From Balneolaceae bacterium (lineage in GTDB: Bacteria; Bacteroidota; Rhodothermia; Balneolales; Balneolaceae), in the NCBI GenBank assembly GCA_007118525.1, contig SKRK01000072.1, positions 1 to 12,560 of the forward strand: a stretch of DNA of 12,560 nt, given 5' to 3'. Positions within the stretch are counted from its first letter, which is position 1, and every line of letters starts with the position of its first letter. Below the pieces are notes generated by a model that saw only the letters and a program-made list of their open reading frames with translations, ran no database searches and was not told the origin of the DNA. The position numbers and the translations under genes were made by a program. Positions 456 through 11,767 of the stretch are shown here, in pieces.

Positions 456-2147
456 TTACTCCGGTTTTCGCCTCCAAGCCACAATTGCAAAACCAAGCGC
501 GAGTAGTGCCGGAATCATGGGCCACATAAATGTAGCAATATCTATATCACGGTCTGCCTGGATGACATTTACCTTTCCTTCCATATAGGGGTGGGGAGTG
601 CATATATATGTGTACTCGCCCTCCTCTTCGAAGGTGTAGCTCCAGCTTTCGGCATGGGCCAGCATAGGAGAGTTTAGTGTAGTGGGCCCTTCGGTCGAAA
701 CAACATTATGTATACCCGAATATTCGCCGGCCAGATAACTGAACACATCCTCATTAATCCACGTCACTGTAGTGCCGGGTGTGATCTCCACTGTTTTTGG
801 ATAGTAGGAGTTACCAATAATATGTATGGTAACATCTTTGGTGTCGTTTCCATAAACGGCAGGAGGATCGATATCGGGAGTACCGGCCTTGAACGGCGAC
901 ATGATCCTGTTTGCACCATCCAATAGTTCTGCAAGCTCCTCATCTGAATAGAGAGGGCCGGTTGCTTCAATCCTCTTGGGTGTATCGGCGTCACGGTCGG
1001 CTACCAGCAGCCCGATTGCCCCCCGGCTGGTTGAGCCAACGGCGTGCGAAAGCATGGTATAGGCGCCTTCATCGGGTGGAACACGAAACTCAATGACAAA
1101 CGTGTCAGATGGGCCTGCTGTCACAGTCTGTCCACCTACAAATACATTTTCCGGGTGCCCCTGCCAGTATGCATAATCCCAGATTATTCCGACAAGATGA
1201 AATGTTGAGACAAGATTCGGACCCACGTTCATAAAGTTGATCCGAACATAGTCACCCGGTTTTGCGGTGATTGGTTCTTTCACATATTTGAAGATCTCGC
1301 CGTTAAATGTTACATACGTAGGATTGCCTTCCACAGCGTTTTTTCCGCTTGAGTACCACTCGTGCTGGATAAGGTCAATCTCAAGATCAGGGCCGTGGCC
1401 AAGCTCCTCTTCCAACTTATATTTTTTTTCAGCCGGTTCAACGATTATCATTCCGTATTGACCAAACATGACGTGCATGGGAATAGCATGTCCACCCGGC
1501 GCGCAGTGATACAAGTAAATTCCCGGAATGGTCGCTTTAAATTTCAAGGATTTTGATTGACCCGCAGGTATCTGACCCAAATACTTGGAAGTTTGTGTGT
1601 AAGCCGCGTGAATAGATGCACCGTGTGGTATAGTGCCATTATTTTGTACAATCACCTCAACAATATCACCTTCGGTTACCCGAAGAGTTGGTCCGGGTAT
1701 GGAACCATTGGTTCGAAATCCATCGTAAACTACTCCATTTCCCAGGTACGCCAGTCCTTCATCCAGTTCGATGGTAAAGCTTATATCAGCCTCAACATCC
1801 TGATCTACATAGCTGGTAGCCGGAATGGAGAGATTGGCATCTCGCTGAATAATCTCAATAAAATCCTGATCCTGTGATGCAGTTGCCCGGTCACCTCTGA
1901 AAAGGTGACTGGTCGCTTCGGCAAAATCGAGGGGCAGGTTTTTTTGAGCCTCCATGGCTGCCATCAACTCCTTTCCAATCAGGGTTTCACTCATGTCTTC
2001 TTCAATCTGCTTTTTATAGAGCAGATTACAAGCAGGGCATGCAAACGCTGATTCCACAACGGTAATCAGCGAAATTGCAAAGAGCAGTGTTGTAAACACC
2101 CCAATTGAAAGTGCTGTTTTATATTTGTTATTATGATCCTTCATCAT
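456..2147 (-). CDS. nirK: NirK-like multicopper protein with fused amicyanin-like domain and C-terminal membrane anchor
   Basis: The 563-residue product is the length of a NirK (about 340-380) plus an extra domain. Residues 10-36 are an export signal. The first cupredoxin domain (about 120-240) carries type 1 copper ligands His175, Cys215 and His225 and type 2 ligands His180 and His214. The second cupredoxin domain (about 255-385) supplies the third type 2 ligand, His368. Residues about 437-532 are an amicyanin/plastocyanin-like domain with His480, Cys516-TPH-His519 and Met522 as in CTPHPxM. Residues 541-557 are a membrane helix followed by Arg-Arg-Lys, so the protein is anchored outside the cytoplasm. 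Family knowledge suggests nitrite reduction to NO. However, the position of the catalytic Asp (AfNiR Asp98) is Ser178, that of His255 is Ile322, and the axial Met position is Gln230, so the activity is uncertain and another copper oxidase role is possible. A GGAG sits five bases before ATG 2147; the second ATG directly after is equally usable. It is divergent from ric. Confidence 0.82.
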   Translation of the reverse strand: MMKDHNNKYKTALSIGVFTTLLFAISLITVVESAFACPACNLLYKKQIEEDMSETLIGKELMAAMEAQKNLPLDFAEATSHLFRGDRATASQDQDFIEIIQRDANLSIPATSYVDQDVEADISFTIELDEGLAYLGNGVVYDGFRTNGSIPGPTLRVTEGDIVEVIVQNNGTIPHGASIHAAYTQTSKYLGQIPAGQSKSLKFKATIPGIYLYHCAPGGHAIPMHVMFGQYGMIIVEPAEKKYKLEEELGHGPDLEIDLIQHEWYSSGKNAVEGNPTYVTFNGEIFKYVKEPITAKPGDYVRINFMNVGPNLVSTFHLVGIIWDYAYWQGHPENVFVGGQTVTAGPSDTFVIEFRVPPDEGAYTMLSHAVGSTSRGAIGLLVADRDADTPKRIEATGPLYSDEELAELLDGANRIMSPFKAGTPDIDPPAVYGNDTKDVTIHIIGNSYYPKTVEITPGTTVTWINEDVFSYLAGEYSGIHNVVSTEGPTTLNSPMLAHAESWSYTFEEEGEYTYICTPHPYMEGKVNVIQADRDIDIATFMWPMIPALLALGFAIVAWRRKPE

Positions 2148-2259: not shown

Positions 2260-2282
2260 TTAAAGACAAAATAGTCTTTTAT
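2260..2282. promoter_or_regulatory. Candidate Rrf2-type operator between nirK-like gene and ric
   Basis: A perfect palindrome AAAGAC-AAAATA-GTCTTT (2262-2279) sits in the middle of the AT-rich divergent intergenic region (2148-2407), about 120-135 bases from either start codon. Aligned over 23 bases, it matches the site before the cytochrome c gene (5307-5329) at 18 positions. The Rrf2-family regulator encoded in the window is the natural candidate to bind it, but this is inference. The rest of the intergenic region is very A/T-rich; no convincing FNR/CRP-type TTGAT-N4-ATCAA box was seen. Confidence 0.5.
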
Positions 2283-2407
2283 ATTTATATTGCCTTCACA
2301 AAACTTCCCTTTCTTTATAATTAAGAATAATTATTGTTCTGACGTGAAGGAAGAAAGTGGTCATAACAATAAGGGTTTAATTTTAAACAGAGGTGTAATT
2401 AAATAAC

Positions 2408-3139
2408 ATGAAACAATCAGAATTCAAAATCAGTGACTTGCCAACCACCCCAATCGGCGATATCGTTGCCGGCAATTATCATGCGGCCGGGGTATTTAAA
2501 GAGTTTGGAATCGACTTCTGCTGTGGCGGGGGCGTGTCGCTAGATAAAGCATGCCAAAAGAGAAATCTCGATATTGAGAAAGTTGTGGAGAAATTGAATC
2601 AACTAAAGAATACAGAGATCAATCCTGATCAAAACTACAATGCATGGGAGCCGGGCTATTTAATAGACCATATTGAAGCGACCCACCATAATTTTGTTAG
2701 AACCAAAACAGCTGAAATAACCGCTTATGCCGCAAAAGTAGCAGGTGTACATGCAGAGCGCCATCCTGAAAATGTAGCGATCTATGAAAAGTTTGTTGCC
2801 CTTTCACGTGAGCTTTTAAACCACCTGGAGGCAGAAGAAGAGCGTGTGTTTCCATTAATTCGCAAAATTTTTGAAGCCCGTATGCGTGGTGAAACAATTT
2901 CAGAGGAAGTGATTGGATCCTTGAAAAATGAACTGGAGCTGATGGAAGATGATCATGAAGAGGCCGGGGACGTGATGAAAGAGATCCGTGAATTGAGTAA
3001 CCAATTTACTCCGCCCACAGATGCCTGCAGAACCTATCAGATTCTCTACCTGAATCTTGCAGGTTTTGAGGAAGATCTCCACAAACACGTACATCTTGAG
3101 AATAACATCCTGTTTAAGAAAGCAGAAAATTTGGTTTGA
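2408..3139 (+). CDS. ric: Ric/ScdA/YtfE family di-iron iron-sulfur cluster repair protein
   Basis: The cytoplasmic 243-residue protein has the standard two-part architecture. Residues about 8-62 are the ScdA/DUF542 domain with the conserved Cys38-Cys39 in FGIDFCCGGG. Residues about 80-240 are a hemerythrin-like four-helix domain with His88, His139 and Glu143 (H-x3-E), His183, and His227/Glu231 in HVHLENNILF, which match the di-iron ligands of YtfE. Proteins of this family restore iron centres damaged by NO or oxidative stress, and may release iron or react with NO. The length is close to that of the usual family members. The gene is divergent from the NirK-like gene, shares with it a palindromic candidate operator, and is followed by a terminator, so it is probably transcribed alone. 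The start ATG at 2408 follows an A/T-rich leader (AGAGGTG about 10 bases upstream). Confidence 0.93.
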   Translation: MKQSEFKISDLPTTPIGDIVAGNYHAAGVFKEFGIDFCCGGGVSLDKACQKRNLDIEKVVEKLNQLKNTEINPDQNYNAWEPGYLIDHIEATHHNFVRTKTAEITAYAAKVAGVHAERHPENVAIYEKFVALSRELLNHLEAEEERVFPLIRKIFEARMRGETISEEVIGSLKNELELMEDDHEEAGDVMKEIRELSNQFTPPTDACRTYQILYLNLAGFEEDLHKHVHLENNILFKKAENLV

Positions 3140-3174
3140 TCTGTATACATACAATTGTAGATAGTTAAACTGCA

Positions 3175-3220
3175 TAAGAAAGTGTTTGCTCAATTAATGA
3201 TCCAATCAAGCACTTTTTTA
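3175..3220 (+). terminator. Rho-independent terminator after ric
   Basis: TAAGAAAGTGTTTG (3175-3188) pairs with CAAGCACTTTTTTA (3207-3220) over 14 bp with two G-U pairs and an 18-base loop. The 3' arm contains the T run. It lies 36 bases beyond the ric stop codon and separates ric from the membrane-protein genes that follow. Confidence 0.7.
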
Positions 3221-3306
3221 TCTCAGTCCCGGAGTGAAAATTCTGCGAAAAAGCTGTGGACAAGAGGTAATTCCCAAACCATTAATCATAGATTAACAAG
3301 ACTCCT

Positions 3307-3795
3307 TTGTACACCTGGTCTGTTTTTTTTCACCTGATATTTGTGACTTTTTGGATTGGCGGAATGCTGTTTACCGCTGCTGTTCTGGTTCCGGCTACCC
3401 GGAAAAAACTGTCCGCTCACCGAGGACTTCTTTTTACAGAGCTGGGAATCCGTTTTAGCAGGTTAAGCTGGATTATTTTTCCACTGCTAATTATCACAGG
3501 CTTTACGGCACTGCTTGGGCGGGGGTTTTCAATAGACACGATCTTATCGGTTGATTTTTGGAGAAGTAACTACGGTTCTCGGTTGATGAGCAAATTGCAC
3601 CTGTTTGGCATTGTGTTGATTGTAAGCGGGATTCACGATTTTTGGCTCGGACCAAAAACAGTGCAGCTCATGGAGAATGAACCTGAGAAAACACGCACAC
3701 GTCGATATCGAAAAACAACCAGCTGGGTGGGCAGAATAAATCTGTTGCTTGGATTGGGAATTCTATACTACGCAGTAACAATGGTGAGAGGTTAA
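3307..3795 (+). CDS. CopD-like four-helix membrane protein
   Basis: The 162-residue protein has four predicted membrane helices (about 5-30, 51-71, 93-113, 139-158) and no other domain. The first helix has the HxxxxxxWIGGMLF pattern (His9, Trp16-Ile-Gly-Gly) that is typical of the CopD-like/DUF4149-like membrane proteins, and the third helix region adds His98 and His110. Such paired helix histidines could bind heme b or copper, which is inference. The reading frame has no good ATG: the likely start is TTG at 3307, since an in-frame stop lies at 3289-3291 and the next Met (residue 20) would cut away most of helix 1. It is 14 bases upstream of the next gene, so it forms an operon with the two small membrane proteins that follow. 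The function is unknown; the context suggests NO, copper or electron transfer to the nos system. Confidence 0.78.
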   Translation: MYTWSVFFHLIFVTFWIGGMLFTAAVLVPATRKKLSAHRGLLFTELGIRFSRLSWIIFPLLIITGFTALLGRGFSIDTILSVDFWRSNYGSRLMSKLHLFGIVLIVSGIHDFWLGPKTVQLMENEPEKTRTRRYRKTTSWVGRINLLLGLGILYYAVTMVRG

Positions 3796-3809
3796 ATAGT
3801 TGATTAGAT

Positions 3810-4250
3810 ATGCCGAAAGTCACGCGATGGTTCATTAAAGCCGGAATTCTTTACTTTATTACAGGCGTATTGCTTGCGGTTATTGCTGAGATACCCGCAT
3901 TTGGTGCAGGCCCTCTATTGCTGCCGGTATACTGGCACATGTTGGTGATGGGTTGGATTACACAGACTATTATGGGTGTTTCAATCTGGATGTTTCCCCG
4001 TAAACATCGCGATAAACAGGAGCGTGAAAAATTGTTATGCTGGCTGGCATTCGGGCTGCTCAATACAGGACTGATACTTCGTTTTCTTTTTGAGCCTTTT
4101 CTATCAATTACTATGGGGAACTATGCTATTAACTTGTTGATAGTTGTTTCATCGGTTTTTCAGGTACTTGCTATAGTCGCTTACATACTTGAGATCTTGC
4201 CCAGACTGCAGCCTCGCGAAAAAAGAAGTATTCAACAAGGCAGATCATGA
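3810..4250 (+). CDS. Small four-helix membrane protein resembling part of heme-copper oxidase subunit I
   Basis: The 146-residue protein has four predicted helices (about 7-28, 37-62, 73-92, 104-130) and a basic C-terminal tail. Helix 2 carries YWHMLVMGWITQTIMG then WMFPRK, which recalls the H-x-H-L-x3-GW-x7-G...(L/M)P signature of the cbb3/NorB-like subunit I and NnrS-type membrane proteins. His43 is the only helix histidine. A full oxidase subunit would have 12 or more helices and six metal-binding His, so this cannot be a complete oxidase or NO reductase. It lies 14 bases after the CopD-like gene and its stop codon overlaps the start of a related protein (ATGATG at 4247). The pair may form a heterodimer that binds heme; this is inference. 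Confidence 0.72.
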   Translation: MPKVTRWFIKAGILYFITGVLLAVIAEIPAFGAGPLLLPVYWHMLVMGWITQTIMGVSIWMFPRKHRDKQEREKLLCWLAFGLLNTGLILRFLFEPFLSITMGNYAINLLIVVSSVFQVLAIVAYILEILPRLQPREKRSIQQGRS

Positions 4251-4669
4251 TGCCCAAGCCATCACTCTGGATGATATGGCTCTCTCTGCTGTATCTGCTT
4301 GTATCTGCAACTGCAGGCGGGGTCATTCTTGTACATAAAGCTGTCGACATCCATCCGGTAATTTGGTCTTTTTTACCTATTCATTACGAGCTGGCCATTT
4401 GGGGATGGCTTGTTCAATTTGTGATGGGAACCGCGTATTGGATGTTCCCAAAATATGTAAATGGAAAAAGGAGGGGGTCAGTGGCCATGGCCTGGGGGAT
4501 GGTATTTGTATTTAATATGGGATTATCTATTTTGGTATTAAGTATGCTATATAGGATGGAGCCTCTATATATAATCGCGGGAAGGTGTCTATTGGTGATC
4601 AGTGTAATAACCTTTAGTTTGCTGATGTGGAGACGAGTAGTTAGTTACCGGGAACTGACTGAGAGATAA
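4247..4669 (+). CDS. Second small four-helix membrane protein, paralog of the preceding gene
   Basis: The 140-residue product has four predicted helices (about 8-30, 42-67, 78-102, 106-127). Its helix 2 (PIHYELAIWGWLVQFVMG, then WMFPK) aligns directly with that of the upstream gene without gaps: Gly-Trp, Gln, Met-Gly and WMFP are shared. The histidine is shifted: His46 here aligns with Tyr41 there, and Glu48 here aligns with His43 there. Extra histidines His30 and His36 lie at the outer end of helix 1. The start overlaps the previous stop (either ATG at 4247 or the ATG at 4250), so the two are translationally coupled. The function is unknown; a paired heme- or quinone-handling membrane complex is a reasonable guess. 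Downstream, 4670-4787 shows nothing I can assign. Confidence 0.72.
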   Translation: MMPKPSLWMIWLSLLYLLVSATAGGVILVHKAVDIHPVIWSFLPIHYELAIWGWLVQFVMGTAYWMFPKYVNGKRRGSVAMAWGMVFVFNMGLSILVLSMLYRMEPLYIIAGRCLLVISVITFSLLMWRRVVSYRELTER

Positions 4670-4787
4670 GAGTTAATAGATACTTGTTGTTCCGGAGAGA
4701 AGTCTAAAATGCAGGAGCTATATGTATAGTGAAAGATTTTTAGATTTAACCGATTTACCTTGATTGTTAAGAAAGAATGGTTGTATA

Positions 4788-4821
4788 TTAAGACATAATA
4801 CTCCTTTAACTTATTATGTCT
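4788..4821. promoter_or_regulatory. Inverted-repeat operator candidate at the rrf2 promoter
   Basis: AGACATAATA (4791-4800) and TATTATGTCT (4812-4821) form a perfect 10-bp inverted repeat with an 11-base spacer. It ends 13 bases before the start codon of the Rrf2 gene. The left arm with its flank (AAGACATAATACTC, 4790-4803) is found again, identical over 14 bases, at 5310-5323 before the cytochrome c gene. The position fits autoregulation by the Rrf2 protein, which is common in this family. Confidence 0.6.
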
Positions 4822-4834
4822 AACAAAATCACGA

Positions 4835-5284
4835 ATGCTTCTTTCAAAATCATGCATGTACGGCCTGCGGGCTTCGGTTCAGCTGGCCGGAAAGAAAGAC
4901 AATACGTATGTAACCATACGTGAGCTGAGTGAGGATCTTGATATTTCGTTCTTTTTTTTAACAAAGGTACTTCAGAGGTTAACACAGGCTGAAATTCTTG
5001 AGTCTTACAAAGGACCAAATGGAGGGGTTAGATTACTGAAGCATCCCGGTGAAGTCACATTCCTGGATGTAGTGACAGCAATTGATGGGGCTTGTACCTT
5101 AAACGAATGTGCTCTGGGATTGCCGGGATGCGGAGTGATGAAACCTTGTCCTCTGCACGATAAATGGTCAATCATGAAAGAAAATATAATGAACATGATG
5201 CAAAATATAACAATTGCCGAACTGGCTAACAGAGGTAATGATAATTTGGACCTGGATGGGCTAATTCATTACATAATTAGGTAA
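4835..5284 (+). CDS. Rrf2-family Fe-S transcriptional regulator
   Basis: The 149-residue protein is full length for Rrf2 regulators. Residues 1-75 are the winged helix-turn-helix: MLLSKSCMYGLRA at the N-terminus, the recognition-helix region around 34-50 and the wing at GPNGGVRL (60-67). The cluster-binding segment has Cys92, Cys99 and Cys105 (C-x6-C-x5-C), plus Cys87 before and His108 after, similar to the ligand layout in IscR/NsrR/RsrR. NsrR-type members sense NO through this cluster, and the neighbours (NirK-like, ric, nosZ) make an NO- or redox-sensing role likely, but the exact subfamily cannot be decided by eye. A perfect inverted repeat lies just before the gene and related dyads precede nirK/ric and the nos genes. 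Little Shine-Dalgarno sequence is present. Confidence 0.9.
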   Translation: MLLSKSCMYGLRASVQLAGKKDNTYVTIRELSEDLDISFFFLTKVLQRLTQAEILESYKGPNGGVRLLKHPGEVTFLDVVTAIDGACTLNECALGLPGCGVMKPCPLHDKWSIMKENIMNMMQNITIAELANRGNDNLDLDGLIHYIIR

Positions 5285-5306
5285 GCAGAAGATTTTTTTA
5301 AAATGT

Positions 5307-5329
5307 TTAAAGACATAATACTCTTAATT
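5307..5329 (+). promoter_or_regulatory. Candidate Rrf2-type operator before the cytochrome c/nosZ genes
   Basis: AAAGAC-ATAATA-CTCTTA (5309-5326) is an imperfect dyad (AAGA...TCTT) that matches the nirK/ric site at 18 of 23 aligned positions and the rrf2 site at 14 consecutive positions. It ends 15 bases before the cytochrome c ATG and lies only 22 bases past the rrf2 stop, in a 60-base gap that must contain any separate promoter of the nos operon. Confidence 0.5.
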
Positions 5330-5344
5330 ACAAACTAGAATAAA

Positions 5345-5812
5345 ATGAAATCCTTAGTAACCATATTATTAACAATCGGTTTTTTATTAACCATACAGGC
5401 TTGCGGTGATGATGAGACAACAGACCGAAGAGCAGATGTTCAACAGGAGGAGGGCTTAACCGAATTTGAACTGGAGCACGGTATAGGCCCGATTACAGAG
5501 AGAATAGAGATAGATGAAGAAATTGACCAGGACCTTCTAACCAAAGGGCGCGATATCTACGAAATGAAATGTGAAATGTGCCACAACATGGAAGGACGTA
5601 TGGTTGGCCCCGAACTTGGCAATGTATTGGATCGCCGAAGTCCTGAGTTTGTAATGAATTTTATTCTCAACCCGGGAAGAATGGCTCAAGATCATCCCGA
5701 AGGGCAGAAGATGTTACGTGAATATATGACAGTGATGCCATTTCAGAATGTGAAAGAAGATGAAGCCCGCGCAATAGTAGAGTATTTACGCTACTACGCG
5801 GAACACAATTAA
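5345..5812 (+). CDS. Monoheme lipoprotein cytochrome c of the nos cluster
   Basis: The 155-residue protein begins with a signal peptide and a lipobox ending in Cys20 (TIQAC), so it is probably anchored by lipid at the outside of a membrane. An acidic linker (about 21-65) precedes a single cytochrome c domain with heme attachment at Cys76-x-x-Cys79-His80. Met131 in VMPFQN is the likely axial ligand. Its place directly before nosZ, 38 bases apart, suggests it donates electrons to the CuA centre of NosZ, as small cytochromes c do in other clade II nos clusters (for example the NosC proteins of Wolinella). The symbol is left blank because orthology was not tested. The start ATG follows an A/T-rich leader without a clear Shine-Dalgarno sequence. 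Confidence 0.9.
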   Translation: MKSLVTILLTIGFLLTIQACGDDETTDRRADVQQEEGLTEFELEHGIGPITERIEIDEEIDQDLLTKGRDIYEMKCEMCHNMEGRMVGPELGNVLDRRSPEFVMNFILNPGRMAQDHPEGQKMLREYMTVMPFQNVKEDEARAIVEYLRYYAEHN

Positions 5813-5850: not shown

Positions 5851-7830
5851 ATGACTCAAATAAAATCAAAAAAACTGCGCGGGATCCTATTGGGAGCAGG
5901 CTTTGTAGCAATAGCTGCATTTGTTTTCACAGGTTGTCCGGGACAGCAGAGAATGCTGGACACGGGTGACGCAGCCCAAAAAGTGTATGTGGCACCGGGA
6001 GAGCATGACGAGTATTATGGCTTCTTTTCAGGTGGATATAGCGGACAATTAAGCGTATGGGGCCTGCCCTCAGCACGGTTTCTGAAAGTAATTCCTGTAT
6101 TTTCTCAGGATCCGGAAACAGGTTATGGCTACTCGGAAGAGACTAAGCCACTATTTAATACCAGTTATGGATTTATACCCTGGGATGATTCTCACCATCC
6201 TCACATCTCACAAACGGATGGAGATGCTGACGGAAGATGGATTTTCATCAATGCAAACAACACTCCACGTATAGCCCGTATTGATTTGGTTACATTTGAA
6301 ACCAAAGAGATTCTGGAACTGCCTAATACCGGTGGTAACCACGCATCTTCATTTGTTACTTCAAATACGGAGTATGTAATCGGTGGAACCCGGTTCAGTA
6401 TTCCTTACGAGCAGGATCTGGATGTACCGATCGACAGCTATAGCGATGAGTTCAGGGGAGCTCTCTCTTTTATAAAAGTAGATGAGAACAGTGGAAAAAT
6501 GGATCTCGAATTCCAGATCGTAGTGCCCCCGTACAACTATGATTTAGGACGTGCAGGCAAAGGCCCTTCTGCCGACTGGGTATTTTTCACTACTTACAAC
6601 ACAGAAGAAGCGCACACCATGCTTGAAGTGAATGCCTCCAGAAACGACAAAGATTTTATTGCTGCCGTGAATTGGAGAAAAGCTGCCGAATTGGTAGCCA
6701 ACGGGCATGGCAAAACAGCACCGGGCGAGTACTATCATAATTACTATGAAGGAAACCAGGGATATGCAATATCTGAGCAGAAAAATGGCGTAACCATTTT
6801 AGACACGCGTGAGATCGATGAGGATTTCATCTACTACCTGCCTACACCGAAATCTCCGCACGGAGTGGATGTTGACCCTACAGGTGAATATATCGTTGGC
6901 GGTGGAAAACTTGCAACCGTTATACCGGTACACTCATTCTCCAGGATGCTTCAGGCAATTGAGGATGGAGCAGTTGTGGAGAGAATTGACGGTATTCCTG
7001 TATTGGATTACGACGCTACCATAGCCGGTGAAGTAGAAAACCCGGGTCTTGGCCCGCTTCACACCGAATTCGACGGACGCGGATACGCCTATACATCTGT
7101 TTACATCTCTTCTGAAATTGTAAAATGGTCATTGGAAACTTTTGAAGTAGTAGACAGAATTGATGCTTACTACTCCATTGGTCACTTGATGATTACAGGT
7201 GGTGACACAAAAAATCCGGATGCGCGATACATGGTTGGCCTTACCAAAACAGCAAAAGACAGATATCTGCCTACCGGTCCTAAGCAGAACCATCCGGCTC
7301 AGCTATATGATATCAGCGGCGACAGAATGGAACTTCTGCTCGATTTTCCAACCATCGGTGAGCCTCACTATGCACAGGCAATACGTGCCGACTTGATCAA
7401 AGACAATGTTGCCCAGATCTATGAGATGGAAGACAATGATCACCCGCATGCACTTAGAAGAATTGCTGACAACAGAGTTGAAAGAGACGGCAATGTTGTA
7501 AGGGTATTCATGGGATCAACAAGAAGCCACTTCCGTCCGGATAATATTGAAGGAATAAGAGTAGGCGATACGGTTTATTTCCACCTCACCAACCTGGAGC
7601 AGGAGTGGGATGTGGTACACGGTATCGCGATTAAAGGTGCACAAAACTCAGAAATTCTTGTAGCCCCCGGGCAGACCAAGACTATGAAATGGGAGCCTAA
7701 CAGAACAGGAATCTATCCGTTCTACTGTACGGCATTTTGTTCTGCCCTCCATCAGGAGATGCAGGGATATGTGCGGGTATCGGCAGCTGATTCAGATGTG
7801 CCTTTAACCTGGAGAACGGGCACCAATTAA
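5851..7830 (+). CDS. nosZ: Nitrous-oxide reductase, clade II (atypical) NosZ
   Basis: The enzyme reduces N2O to N2 outside the cytoplasm. The 659-residue product has an N-terminal hydrophobic signal without the twin-arginine motif of clade I NosZ; the signal ends in VFTGC (Cys29), a lipobox-like site. The seven-bladed propeller carries all seven CuZ histidines by alignment with Pseudomonas stutzeri NosZ: His115 and His116 (DDSHHPH), His164 (GGNH), His337 (SPHG), His404 (GPLHTEFDGRG), His445 (SIGH) and His506 (GEPH). The C-terminal cupredoxin domain (about 540-645) has the CuA ligands His590, Cys626, Cys630, His634 and Met637 in CTAFCSALHQEM, the form seen in clade II. The copper sites are complete, so it is probably active. 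It follows the cytochrome c gene and is followed by strong hairpins that may separate its expression from the accessory genes. The start is ATG 5851 with AAAAG just before. Confidence 0.98.
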   Translation: MTQIKSKKLRGILLGAGFVAIAAFVFTGCPGQQRMLDTGDAAQKVYVAPGEHDEYYGFFSGGYSGQLSVWGLPSARFLKVIPVFSQDPETGYGYSEETKPLFNTSYGFIPWDDSHHPHISQTDGDADGRWIFINANNTPRIARIDLVTFETKEILELPNTGGNHASSFVTSNTEYVIGGTRFSIPYEQDLDVPIDSYSDEFRGALSFIKVDENSGKMDLEFQIVVPPYNYDLGRAGKGPSADWVFFTTYNTEEAHTMLEVNASRNDKDFIAAVNWRKAAELVANGHGKTAPGEYYHNYYEGNQGYAISEQKNGVTILDTREIDEDFIYYLPTPKSPHGVDVDPTGEYIVGGGKLATVIPVHSFSRMLQAIEDGAVVERIDGIPVLDYDATIAGEVENPGLGPLHTEFDGRGYAYTSVYISSEIVKWSLETFEVVDRIDAYYSIGHLMITGGDTKNPDARYMVGLTKTAKDRYLPTGPKQNHPAQLYDISGDRMELLLDFPTIGEPHYAQAIRADLIKDNVAQIYEMEDNDHPHALRRIADNRVERDGNVVRVFMGSTRSHFRPDNIEGIRVGDTVYFHLTNLEQEWDVVHGIAIKGAQNSEILVAPGQTKTMKWEPNRTGIYPFYCTAFCSALHQEMQGYVRVSAADSDVPLTWRTGTN

Positions 7831-8640: not shown

Positions 8641-9153
8641 GTGGGGAAACGATTATTTAACATACTTCTATTAACCGCACTCTTAATTGCGGGATGTAAC
8701 GAAAATCAAACTCAGGAAAACGAGGTATTTCTTTACAAAAATAGCGTGGATATAAACTACGGCAGTGATATCTGCAGCTTTACGGGCAAGGCAATCGAAA
8801 CCGTACGTTATGGCGGAAAGATAGTTTTAACTGACGAAACAGAACATAAATTTATGTCGGTGGAGTGTATGGCCGGATTTTATCTGAAAATGGAAGACAT
8901 ATCGTCAATCAACTATATGCTTACGGTTGATTTTGCACACGGGCAACAGTATGTGCCTGTGGAGGATGCGGTTTACCTGAGAAGCTCACTGCGGCCCAGC
9001 CCGAACGGGATGAACCTGACGGCCGTGGATGCATCCAACGAAAGGATGAAAACCTATATCTACGACGCATACCCGGGCGAATACCTTTCATGGAACGAAG
9101 TTCTCGAACTGGTAAAAGATGAATGGAATATCCGCCATACCGCAATGAAGTAA
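8641..9153 (+). CDS. nosL: NosL-family lipoprotein with altered metal-binding motif
   Basis: The 170-residue product starts at GTG with AGGAAGG just upstream. Its signal ends in LIAGC (lipid-attached Cys19). The NosL fold is recognisable by the paired segments FMSVECMAGF (71-80), VEDAVYLRSS and RPSPNGMNLTA (118-128), which align with the second NosL behind it. NosL proteins bind Cu(I) and deliver copper to NosZ. Here the usual C-x-x-C-x-M motif is replaced: Cys45 is present (SDICSFTGKAI) but the second Cys is Thr48 and the Met is Lys50. Cys76-Met77 are kept. It could bind copper differently, serve as a partner of the canonical copy, or be a non-metal scaffold. It lies 28 bases upstream of the second nosL reading frame (38 to the preferred start). 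Confidence 0.88.
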   Translation: MGKRLFNILLLTALLIAGCNENQTQENEVFLYKNSVDINYGSDICSFTGKAIETVRYGGKIVLTDETEHKFMSVECMAGFYLKMEDISSINYMLTVDFAHGQQYVPVEDAVYLRSSLRPSPNGMNLTAVDASNERMKTYIYDAYPGEYLSWNEVLELVKDEWNIRHTAMK

Positions 9154-9190
9154 AATTAACAAAACTAAATTTAAAACAAAGGTGATGACC

Positions 9191-9676
9191 ATGAGGGGTG
9201 GATCAATCCTGATAACATTAGCAGTTTCATTACTGCTTTTTTCCGGCTGTGAGCCTAAACCGCAGCCTATTGAACTGGGCAGCGACCAGTGCGCATATTG
9301 CAGAATGATGATTACCGAGCAGGAGTTCGGTACGCAAATTCTAAACAAGCAGGGCCGGGCATTTAAGTTCGACTCTGTAGAGTGTATGGCTGCATATGAT
9401 ATTACTGAAGATGGAGAGAATTTCCATTCCAAATGGGTGCCTGATTTTTTGAATCGTGAAAATTGGGTAAACGCTGAGGAGGCTGTTTATCTGCACAGTG
9501 AAACGCTTCGCAGCCCGATGGGCTTATATCTGACCGCTTATGCAGACAGGGAATCAGCCGAGCAGATGCAGGCAGAATATGGCGGAGACATTCTTGACTA
9601 CGAAAGTGTAAAAGTGCTTGTAAGCGGTGAATGGCTTGACAACAGTGAAAACCAAGTGCATCACCAAAATCATTAG
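9191..9676 (+). CDS. nosL: Canonical NosL copper chaperone lipoprotein
   Basis: The 161-residue lipoprotein has a signal ending in LLFSGC (Cys20), the metal motif Cys34-AY-Cys37-R-Met39, and FKFDSVECMAAY (58-69) with Cys65-Met66, all as in copper-binding NosL. It is expected to bind Cu(I) outside the cytoplasm and hand it on for NosZ maturation. The start at ATG 9191 is preferred because AAAGG (9178-9182) is then eight bases upstream; in-frame GTG 9182 and ATG 9185 are alternatives that would add two or three residues. It shares its overall layout with the preceding NosL-like protein, so the two probably came from a duplication and then diverged. Confidence 0.95.
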   Translation: MRGGSILITLAVSLLLFSGCEPKPQPIELGSDQCAYCRMMITEQEFGTQILNKQGRAFKFDSVECMAAYDITEDGENFHSKWVPDFLNRENWVNAEEAVYLHSETLRSPMGLYLTAYADRESAEQMQAEYGGDILDYESVKVLVSGEWLDNSENQVHHQNH

Positions 9677-9684
9677 AGTAGAAC

Positions 9685-9762
9685 ATGGAAAAAGAAATTA
9701 TTTATGGCCCACAAATGGGCGAAAACTGGACAATACTTTCAGCCTTGAAAATCTCGATCTGA
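9685..9762 (+). CDS. Possible 25-residue leader peptide before nosD
   Basis: ATG 9685 opens a frame of 25 codons (MEKEIIYGPQMGENW... ending KISI) whose TGA (9760-9762) overlaps the preferred nosD ATG (9762-9764). It fills the gap between nosL and nosD almost exactly, and AGAG lies about 6 bases before its start. It has no known motif. Such a layout would allow translational coupling to nosD. It could also be chance, because a 25-codon frame is short. Confidence 0.3.
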   Translation: MEKEIIYGPQMGENWTILSALKISI

Positions 9763-11000
9763 TGAAACAGATAATTTACATAGTTGCTATACTCCTATTT
9801 CTGACCCCGGTGTCCTTAATCTATGGGCAGATCACTGTGAGTCCGGATGGATCGATAACATCTATCCAGGAGGCTATTGATCAGGCAATCTCCGGCGATA
9901 CAATCCGTGTTGAGGCGGGGACCTATAATGAGAGTGATATTTCCATAAAAAAACCGATTACGATTTTGGGAATAGACCGTCCGGTGATTGACGGTGAAGG
10001 AAAGGGATTCATCATGTTAATTACCGCAGATAGCGTCACGGTTAGCGGTTTTGATATCCATAATACCGGAAGAAGCTATATTCGCGACTATGCTGCCATA
10101 ATGATAGAGAATTCGAAAGATTTTATAATTGAAGACAATCGGCTCGACAACGTCTTTTTTGGAATCTACCTGGCAGAGACAGACAGGGGGGTTGTCAGAA
10201 ACAATGAAATTGAATCGTACGATTTGCGGGAAGCTTCATCGGGGAATGGAATCCATCTCTGGAGCGTAAAGAACCCGAGAATTGAAAACAACACCGTAAA
10301 GGGAATGCGGGATGGCATCTACCTGGAGTTTGTAGATAATGCCCGGATAACCGGAAATGTGAGCAGCGATAACAATCGTTACGGACTCCACTACATGTTT
10401 TCAAATGGCGGAATTTATCATGATAATACATTCAGGAAAAATGGTGCAGGTGTTGCGGTAATGTATTCCGAAAATGTAGATATGAAGAATAACCGTTTTG
10501 AAAATAACTGGGGCCCATCCTCGTATGGATTGCTTCTGAAAGATATACGAAACAGCACCATCGAAGGTAATCGTTTTTACCGGAACACAGTGGCGATCTA
10601 TTCAGAAAGTTCCTCAAATGTGCAAATTAGGCGTAATGACGTAGAGCTGAACGGTTGGGCGGTAAATATAAAATCGAGCAGTGCCCGAAACTACTTCACT
10701 GAAAATAATTTTATTGAGAACAGTTTTGACGTTAGGACCGACAGCCCCCGGAATAACAATGTTTTTGAGGGTAACTACTGGAGTCAATATGAGGGTTATG
10801 ACCTGGATCGGGATGGTATAGGCGATGTTCCATACCGTCCGGTTAGCTTGTTTTCGATTATTATTGATCGGCAACCGGAATCTCTTATTCTGATGCGAAG
10901 CATGTTCATCAGATTGCTTGATACGGCCGAACGGATTGCCCCGGTGCTGACACCGAAAACTCTTATAGATGAGAACCCAAAAATGAGCAGAATACAATGA
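9762..11000 (+). CDS. nosD: NosD, periplasmic beta-helix copper-maturation protein
   Basis: The 412-residue protein begins with a signal peptide (about 1-22, cleavage near IYGQ). The body is a right-handed parallel beta-helix of CASH/NosD repeats: opening VSPDGSITSIQEAIDQAISG, then many short turns of the type 'NN.I......GI.L' with frequent Asn. The C-terminus has GNYWSQYEGYDLDRDGIGD followed by VPYRPVSLFS, a hallmark of NosD. NosD works with the NosFY ABC transporter in assembling the CuZ centre of NosZ, probably by handling sulfur or copper outside the cytoplasm. The start at 9762 is chosen because it opens directly on the signal peptide; the open frame extends back to 9627, but this would overlap nosL and add 45 non-hydrophobic residues. 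Its stop overlaps the nosF start (ATGA). Confidence 0.95.
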   Translation: MKQIIYIVAILLFLTPVSLIYGQITVSPDGSITSIQEAIDQAISGDTIRVEAGTYNESDISIKKPITILGIDRPVIDGEGKGFIMLITADSVTVSGFDIHNTGRSYIRDYAAIMIENSKDFIIEDNRLDNVFFGIYLAETDRGVVRNNEIESYDLREASSGNGIHLWSVKNPRIENNTVKGMRDGIYLEFVDNARITGNVSSDNNRYGLHYMFSNGGIYHDNTFRKNGAGVAVMYSENVDMKNNRFENNWGPSSYGLLLKDIRNSTIEGNRFYRNTVAIYSESSSNVQIRRNDVELNGWAVNIKSSSARNYFTENNFIENSFDVRTDSPRNNNVFEGNYWSQYEGYDLDRDGIGDVPYRPVSLFSIIIDRQPESLILMRSMFIRLLDTAERIAPVLTPKTLIDENPKMSRIQ

Positions 11001-11767
11001 TTGAGATTAAAAACCTTGAAAAAGCATTTGGCAGGCTGAACGTTTTAAAAGGCATGAATCTGACCATTCCAAAGGGACAGGCTACCGGTATTGTGGGGCC
11101 AAACGGCGCAGGAAAAACGACGCTGATTAAAACAATACTCGGACTGGTGAAAGCGGATTCGGGATCCATCAGCGTAAACGGCATTGAGCTGAACGGCAAC
11201 TGGGATTACAGAAAAGATATCGGTTATATGCCGCAAGTGGCCCGCTATCCCGAGAATATGAAAGTGAATGAACTTCTCAGTTTTATTAAAAAGCTAAGAG
11301 ATCAGAATCCGGTTTATGAGGAAGAGCTGATAGATCAGTTCTCTCTTCGGTCAGAACTTGAGAAACCATTGCGAACTCTCTCCGGAGGGAACCGACAGAA
11401 AGTAGGCGCCATTCTGTCGATGATGTTTAACCCCGAGATCCTCTTTTTTGATGAACCGACGGCAGGGCTCGACCCACAGTCGAGCCACAAGTTCAAACAG
11501 CGTGTAAAAGCTGAAAAAGAGAATGGGAAAACAGTCATCATCACATCTCACATTATGAGTGAACTCGAGCAGCTGGTAGATCATGTCATTTTTATACTGG
11601 ATGGAAATATCAGGTATTACGGTTCAATGCAAAATCTGCTTGATGAGAGCGAAGAAGACCGGCTTGAGGCGGCGATTGCCCGGATGATGGATACACCATC
11701 TGAGGAGAATGACACTAAACGGGAACCAGGAACTATTACTAAATCACAAAAATTGGAAACCGCTTGA
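10997..11767 (+). CDS. nosF: NosF, ABC transporter ATP-binding protein
   Basis: The 256-residue cytoplasmic ATPase has all motifs in order: Walker A GPNGAGKTT (34-42), Q-loop Gln80, signature LSGGNRQ (128-134), Walker B ILFFDEP (148-154), D-loop GLDP (157-160) and H-loop His185. It powers the NosDFY complex together with the membrane protein NosY, which is required for maturation of the CuZ site of NosZ. The C-terminal tail (about 215-256) is acidic then basic and of low complexity. The start overlaps the nosD stop by ATGA, which indicates translational coupling. Its stop is followed without a gap by the small frame at 11768. Confidence 0.96.
   Translation: MIEIKNLEKAFGRLNVLKGMNLTIPKGQATGIVGPNGAGKTTLIKTILGLVKADSGSISVNGIELNGNWDYRKDIGYMPQVARYPENMKVNELLSFIKKLRDQNPVYEEELIDQFSLRSELEKPLRTLSGGNRQKVGAILSMMFNPEILFFDEPTAGLDPQSSHKFKQRVKAEKENGKTVIITSHIMSELEQLVDHVIFILDGNIRYYGSMQNLLDESEEDRLEAAIARMMDTPSEENDTKREPGTITKSQKLETA

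Follow-up and report, generated by a model that had tools for sequence, protein, structure and literature searches.

The window analysed here is the whole of a 12,560-nucleotide contig (C98) from a Balneolaceae assembly (G000; 2.07 Mb in 369 contigs, 81% complete). It carries nirK on the minus strand, followed by ric, a CopD-like gene, two small COX1-like genes, rrf2, a cytochrome c gene (cytc), clade II nosZ, orf191, a nosL-like gene, nosL, nosD, nosF and a putative nosY. Three copies of a short dyad lie within this order: site 1 between the divergent nirK and ric, site 2 between the second COX1-like gene and rrf2, and site 3 between rrf2 and cytc. From the sequence comparisons described below, the recurring dyad is very probably the binding site of the neighbouring Rrf2 regulator. 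Coordinates of all features are collected in Table 1.

Table 1. Dyads, promoter and genes of the window, with the hemN-linked rrf2 paralogue of related loci
Feature	Position	Strand	Basis and remarks
Putative operator 1, AAGACAAAATAGTCTT	2263..2278	+	between nirK and ric; 26.3 bits, best in the window
Putative operator 2, AAGACATAATACTCCT	4790..4805	+	directly 3' of the rrf2 -10-like box; 18.1 bits
Perfect 10-bp inverted repeat, AGACATAATA-N11-TATTATGTCT	4791..4821		second arm, 4812-4821, not conserved
Putative operator 3, AAGACATAATACTCTT	5310..5325	+	precedes cytc and nosZ; 25.4 bits
Putative sigma-70 type rrf2 promoter	4760..4789	+	TTGATT 4760-4765, 18 bp, TATATT 4784-4789; 9 of 12
nirK, long form, copper nitrite reductase-like with extra cupredoxin-like domain	456..2147	-	TIGR02376 143.1 bits, below cut-off 296.3
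ric, ytfE/scdA-type di-iron protein for iron-sulfur (Fe-S) repair	2408..3139	+	TIGR03652 232.7 bits, above cut-off 204.7
CopD-like membrane protein, start uncertain	3307..3795	+	PF05425 39.8 bits, above cut-off 32.1; NCBIfam CopD below cut-off
Small COX1-like membrane protein, 146 amino acids	3810..4250	+	PF00115 23.5 bits, below cut-off
Small COX1-like membrane protein, 140 amino acids	4247..4669	+	PF00115 24.5 bits, below cut-off
rrf2, Rrf2-family regulator, 149 amino acids	4835..5284	+	TIGR00738 107.6 bits; PF02082 101.1 bits
cytc, cytochrome c, first gene 3' of operator 3	5345..5812	+	PF00034 41.9 bits
nosZ, Sec-dependent (clade II) nitrous-oxide reductase	5851..7830	+	TIGR04246 889.7 bits, cut-off 625
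orf191, conserved nos-cluster open reading frame (ORF), 191 amino acids	8046..8621	+	follows nosZ in relatives; no Pfam match
nosL-like ORF 1	8641..9153	+	no Pfam/NCBIfam match of its own; shares a BLAST cluster with nosL ORFs
nosL	9182..9676	+	PF05573 56.1 bits
nosD	9753..11000	+	TIGR04247 446.5 bits
nosF-like ABC transporter ATPase	10997..11767	+	PF00005 101.3 bits; nosF by position
Putative nosY, truncated by contig end	11890..12560	+	clusters with post-nosF ORFs of relatives; name from position
hemN-linked paralogous rrf2 with its own operator variant	L277-L286, L055:15621, L057:13586, L067:12265		

Dyads of the window

A sequence-only reading of the window had placed related dyads at three promoters, and all three were found where claimed, in intergenic DNA. 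The full 18-bp dyad of site 1, AAAGACAAAATAGTCTTT (2262-2279), contains a 16-mer that ends 115 bp before the nirK start and 129 bp before the ric start, and this 16-mer is unchanged in the nearest relative (L052). Site 2 (AAGACATAATACTC, 4790-4803) belongs to a dyad ending 29 bp before rrf2, and site 3 (AAAGACATAATACTCTTA, 5309-5326) ends 19 bp before cytc. As claimed, sites 2 and 3 are identical over 14 consecutive bases; the agreement reported between sites 1 and 3, 18 of 23 bases, comes to 17 or 18 depending on the register. The perfect 10-bp inverted repeat reported at rrf2 also exists, spanning 4791-4821 rather than 4790-4821, but as a conserved element it did not hold up. The nearest relative does not keep the second arm, and the long repeat was therefore rejected as a separate larger operator; the unit kept at rrf2 is the 16-bp dyad.

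Matches to AAGACATAATANTCTT with up to two mismatches number four in the window, three of them intergenic, where shuffled sequences give an expectation of 0.02 and none of 200 shuffles reached four. The fourth match (6008-6023, 10.9 bits) lies inside nosZ and was taken as chance, because it falls within sequence coding for a protein that is 99% identical in the nearest relative, where a two-mismatch match also occurs. Over the 2.07-Mb assembly, a limit of one mismatch returned only four places, namely the three window sites and one on another contig (C83), and only three copies were exact. A weight matrix was also built from the relatives' sites; its training set excluded the window as well as three loci from the window's own or the nearest genome. 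This matrix ranked precisely the three dyads first (26.3 bits at 2263, 25.4 at 5310 and 18.1 at 4790), followed by matches of 10.9 and 4.6 bits.

A 23-bp reading with the 11-1-11 arrangement of NsrR sites was rejected for the window: the weak ATCTT-like signal seen by eye a few bases 3' of the dyad is missing from the window's own sites. The reading may still apply to some promoters. Also by eye, a TTCACAAT/TTCATAAT-like element was seen 3' of the operator at ric promoters (in the window, for example, at 2295-2302, TTCACAAA) and 5' of it at nirK2 promoters (L112-L118).

Conservation and distribution of the dyad

Conservation was measured gene by gene in the window and in 20 loci, selected on Rrf2 matches and nothing else out of the 76 genomes that gave one. 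The matrix used was built from 55 sites elsewhere, none from the window's genus, although five test loci share genera with training sites; a site was counted at 10 bits or more within 200 bp of a start. By this measure, rrf2 adjoining cytc has a site in 19 of 21 cases, cytc in 15 of 21, ric in 10 of 13 and long nirK (nirK1) in 3 of 5. All three genes of a family of about 600 amino acids (U600) have one, two of them in a divergent promoter shared with ric, as do six of nine rrf2 genes adjoining hemN. No site was found in these loci at tnaA (0/2) or nirK2 (0/1), nor at any of 12 control families: nosZ (0/21), orf191 (0/19), nosL (0/31), nosD (0/18), nosF (0/17), nosY (0/16), hemN (0/12), c14 (0/11), c16 (0/8), coxA (0/6), coxB (0/6) and copD (0/2). 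The operator is kept at orthologous promoters and absent from control promoters. The sequence-only reading had made its proposal depend on such conservation, and within the family the dyad is indeed kept at the majority of promoters of rrf2, cytc-nosZ and ric, as well as at some of those of nirK.

A count over all fetched loci gave 96 distinct sites; since many of these loci were fetched for the motif, it characterizes the regulon and does not test it independently. Sixty-seven of them adjoin rrf2, cytc, ric or nirK, and 21 adjoin other recurring genes (the 600-amino-acid family, tryptophanase-like, ADP-forming acyl-CoA synthetase, DUF2249, formate-tetrahydrofolate (THF) ligase and others). 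The remaining eight adjoin neither, and one of these lies inside a gene. The proposal of an Rrf2 regulon over nirK, ric, rrf2 and nos is supported, but the predicted regulon is wider than claimed, with a fourth genomic site on contig C83.

This fourth site (C83:2512-2527; loci L072, L033) has a tryptophanase/tyrosine-phenol-lyase-like gene on one side and an ORF of the 600-amino-acid family on the other. The same family recurs with the operator in several relatives (L121, L122, L124, L127, L129-L131). The one member tested gave no Pfam, NCBIfam or PDB-sequence match, and a protein search returned at least 8000 relatives, with no functional name among the matches listed.

Across the family, the exact form AAGAYWWAATASTCTT was found in 62 of 92 genomes. 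A close Rrf2 (E below 1e-40) is encoded in 67 of these genomes, and 60 of them have the exact form, versus 2 of the 25 without such an Rrf2 (Fisher p ~2e-13, only a guide as the genomes are related). The exact motif was found in 74 of 128 genomes of the wider order, and across the phylum Rrf2 was detected at E <= 1e-36 in 132 of 395 genomes. A protein search covering the genomes of 84,980 species gave 251 relatives, from which 80 loci were kept. Before rrf2, a record titled Gemmatimonadetes has the exact operator and one titled Calditrichia has AAGACAAAAGAGTCTT, while CAGAC-type forms occur in Ignavibacteria and Kapaibacterium records; these four kinds of record are single metagenome-assembled contigs, for which misassignment is possible. 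With a fixed relaxed dyad, a match within 60 bp of the start was found in loci L165-L244 for 67 of 78 rrf2 genes versus 24 of 368 other ORFs, among which cytc, ric and other true targets were counted. For distant loci, drawn from other families of the order, class and phylum, the counts were 13 of 39 versus 1 of 158; a slightly different dyad definition gave 15 of 36 distant rrf2 genes versus 6 of 276 (two loci double-counted). The common core is therefore about RGAY-N6-STCY.

In several relatives a paralogous second rrf2 lies about 10 kb downstream and precedes hemN. The exact variant AAGAYAAAAGASTCTC gave 10 matches in 10 of the 92 genomes, always 18-21 bp before the hemN-linked rrf2; no copy was seen in the window's assembly, which is incomplete.

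The Rrf2 protein and the rrf2 promoter

The rrf2 product is a member of the Rrf2 superfamily, with the cut-offs of TIGR00738 and PF02082 (73.3 and 30 bits) both exceeded, and it scored below the cut-offs of the NsrR, IscR, RirA, CymR and SUF-regulator models. In a PDB sequence search the nearest entry was Staphylococcus aureus CymR, followed by IscR. Conservation among 62 homologues, paralogues included, is near complete at Cys92 (62), Cys99 (60), Cys105 (62) and His108 (61), and Cys7 is kept in 57. The three conserved sensing-loop cysteines are those expected of Rrf2 Fe-S sensors, and His108 aligns with a His of IscR. Position 8, which probably aligns with Asp8 of Streptomyces coelicolor NsrR, is V, I or M in 58 of the 62 (M in the window). 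Asp8 is described as a cluster ligand in S. coelicolor NsrR (PMC9338935). Because Asp8 is missing and the NsrR model failed (NF008240, 50.8 bits against a cut-off of 182), the regulator is classed on its sequence as NsrR-like, and not as NsrR.

NsrR is the nitric-oxide sensor of the Rrf2 family known from Escherichia coli, Bacillus subtilis and S. coelicolor. The likeness to it extends beyond the family and the three sensing-loop cysteines to the targets, since those described for NsrR include nirK, dnrN/ytfE-type repair genes and, in one lineage, nos genes (Rodionov 2005, PMC1274295). The operators differ. That of NsrR is given as gATGyAT-N5-ATrCATc (PMC1274295) or as a 23-bp site (PMC9338935), whereas here it is AAGAY-N6-STCTT, an even dyad with a 16-bp core. 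The sequence-only reading had likewise held the motif to be unlike the NsrR consensus, and with up to two mismatches the window holds a single NsrR-type match against 2.96 expected by chance, and this match lies inside nosZ. A further difference is that cytc-nosZ is a frequent target here. IscR shares the His after the third Cys, and IscR entries were the best-scoring Fe-S Rrf2 proteins after CymR in the PDB search, but TIGR02010 gave only 71.3 bits (cut-off 207.55). No isc or suf gene appears among the annotated targets, which are a part of all targets and were not searched for isc/suf as such; the IscR operator also differs from this dyad.

In the S. coelicolor NsrR-DNA structure the protein is reported to contact few bases: those at about +-4 to 6 and +-9 to 11, the central 7 bp being free of base contacts (PMC9338935). 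In the dyad, the conserved GAY/STC occupies +-3.5 to 5.5, and A/T makes up 92-99% of the next 4-6 bases. This geometry of half-sites round an A/T-rich hexamer fits an Rrf2 dimer. A comparison by eye of operator bases with the recognition helix gave no clear covariation, helix and core both being nearly constant.

At rrf2 itself, operator 2 begins at the base right after TATATT of the putative promoter. The promoter scan as a whole returned 10 sites against 9.1 expected, so the match in the window is not significant alone. When 36 nos-linked rrf2 promoters with a site were aligned on the operator, TTGA stood at -30 in 20, TATATT at -6 in 19 and TAnnnT at -6 in 30. Negative autoregulation of rrf2 appears likely, because the operator abuts the -10-like box and a bound dimer would cover the transcription start. 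A different arrangement was seen by eye at Fodinibius-type cytc and nirK2 promoters (L139, L143, L151-L158), where TGGCAC-N5-TTGCA elements, some of them degenerate, directly precede the operator. These elements are sigma-54-like, and they suggest a second, activator-dependent control layer in such loci.

Predicted regulation and alternative explanations

Sequence comparison shows the sites, how they are conserved at the promoters concerned, that they are linked to this Rrf2, and the rrf2 promoter-operator geometry; the most probable account of all this is an NsrR-like, non-NsrR Rrf2 repressor that couples nirK, ric and nos. An Rrf2 homodimer would bind the 16-bp dyad AAGAY-WWAATA-STCTT together with A/T-rich flanks, and would carry an Fe-S cluster with probable ligands Cys92, Cys99 and Cys105 plus His108 or Cys7. 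With its cluster intact, the protein would cover the rrf2 transcription start, sit near the cytc-nosZ start and repress. Nitric oxide (NO) formed by NirK from nitrite would damage the cluster, Rrf2 would leave the DNA, and nirK, ric, rrf2 and the nos operon would then be expressed together, so that NO damage is repaired and nitrous oxide (N2O) removed during nitrite reduction. We infer the physical binding, the cluster and its ligands, and the NO signal, as well as the sign of control, taken to be repression and not activation, most of all at the nirK/ric site with its 115 and 129 bp to the two starts. The account as a whole, from operators of this Rrf2 to release by NO and co-expression, we consider likely.

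Several observations weigh against it. A site is missing from six of the 21 cytc promoters, from three of the 13 ric promoters and from two of the five nirK1 promoters, and in one locus (L070, genome G044) the nos-linked rrf2, cytc, ric and nirK2 all go without, although an exact copy precedes a different gene of this locus. When all fetched loci are taken together, many of them motif-chosen, one of seven copD and one of 12 c16 genes reach 12 bits or more. The rrf2 -35/-10 arrangement is not repeated at cytc, ric or nirK2, and for 26 of the 39 distant rrf2 genes the 60 bp next to the start hold no dyad. At the genome level, 7 of 67 genomes with a close Rrf2 have no exact motif, while 2 of the 25 Rrf2-less genomes carry it (G073; and G077, a 90%-complete assembly, between nirK and ric). 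A reversed control pattern gave 30 matches in the 92 genomes versus 109 for the motif, so some isolated sites can be chance. Moreover, 23 of the 25 Rrf2-less genomes also have no ric at E <= 1e-20, and co-occurrence therefore cannot separate the regulator from its targets.

That the dyad is a core promoter element of AT-rich genomes and no operator is very improbable. YAWAAT within the dyad does resemble a -10 box, and a TTGCA-like element lies about 16 bp upstream in some cytc promoters; but exact copies in the assembly number only three, a separate -35/-10 pair precedes the dyad at rrf2, and the spacing between site and start varies from 5 bp to 200 bp or more, divergent genes included. The dyad could instead be the site of another regulator, of the Crp/Fnr type (NnrR/DNR) or two-component, with rrf2 merely a target. 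The site does precede many genes besides rrf2, Crp/Fnr regulators are described as controlling proteobacterial denitrification genes (PMC1274295), and an nnrR-like gene is reported on one clade II nos scaffold of the Cytophaga-Flavobacterium-Bacteroides (CFB) group (PMC6264515). DNR and NnrR thus share target functions with the present Rrf2, but they belong to an unrelated protein family with an Fnr-like box, and none is found at these promoters: the three TTGAY-N4-RTCAA matches with up to one mismatch (6238, 7393 and 9636) lie elsewhere in the window. The dyad, moreover, is most constant at rrf2 (19/21), also stands before rrf2 in distant lineages, and occurs as a variant at the paralogous rrf2, and we regard a different regulator as improbable.

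Two further alternatives concern the mode of control and the signal. Rrf2 might bind the sites but activate, or mix repression and activation by promoter; IscR, whose His aligns with His108, represses some promoters and activates others. The site is found 73-200 bp upstream of ric, or 115-130 bp upstream of long nirK, both in the window and in several relatives, as against 5-50 bp upstream of ric elsewhere, and in Fodinibius-type cytc and nirK promoters the operator follows the sigma-54-like element, a promoter type that needs an activator. Against this stands the position of the operator right after the rrf2 -10-like box (TAnnnT at -6, 30/36), where a bound protein is expected to block RNA polymerase, and activation seems to us unlikely. 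Somewhat less doubtful is a signal other than NO, such as iron, Fe-S status, redox or oxygen, with the denitrification genes controlled as anaerobic genes; this we hold to be possible, if still on the unlikely side. Fe-S relatives in the Rrf2 family are described as sensing Fe-S status (IscR), iron (RirA) and redox state (RsrR) (PMC9338935), the Asp8 ligand of NsrR is missing here, and some sites precede tryptophanase-like, acyl-CoA synthetase and formate-THF ligase genes. The most constant targets, on the other hand, are ric, nirK and nos, and suf/isc is absent from the site-neighbour families annotated so far, a part of the whole in which suf/isc was not a search target.

Beyond the repressor itself, the chances are roughly even that these proteins form a separate Rrf2 subfamily. 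Such a subfamily would have its own operator (GAC-N6-GTC-like core) and ligands (Cys7/His108 for Asp8), and would control clade II nosZ locally across a large part of the Bacteroidota and beyond. It would join nitrite reduction, NO repair, N2O reduction and the widespread, unnamed 600-amino-acid family in one regulon, and a duplicate next to hemN would have evolved an operator of its own. Clade II nosZ is a sink for the greenhouse gas N2O, and the control of its expression in Bacteroidota is poorly known. Its clusters are described as having no nosR (PMC9697520, PMC6264515), and the role of an Rrf2 beside clade II nosZ has been called hard to predict (PMC6264515). An rrf2-clade II nosZ neighbourhood and a proposed role like those considered here are reported for Melioribacter roseus (Mros1101, PMC3534657) and for Ushuaia Bay scaffolds (PMC6264515); as far as these sources go, the gene is named and a role proposed, with no operator or regulon given. 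Nor was either found for this Rrf2 in the literature searched, although subscription journals and regulon databases lay mostly outside the search and absence is not proven. A defined operator turns the nearby rrf2 into a testable regulon and could serve as a DNA signature predicting which genomes couple NO production to N2O removal; the regulon would also point to the 600-amino-acid family as part of nitrogen-oxide physiology.

Among the remaining genes of the window, nirK gave a further match to the amicyanin model over residues 450-528 (68.8 bits, below cut-off), and orf191 is possibly NosB-like. When the assembly was searched for the COX1 family, two matches exceeded the cut-off, the 140-amino-acid ORF of the window falling below it. 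Both small COX1-like ORFs (3810-4669) recur near ric in several relatives, and this pair of proteins might serve in NO handling.

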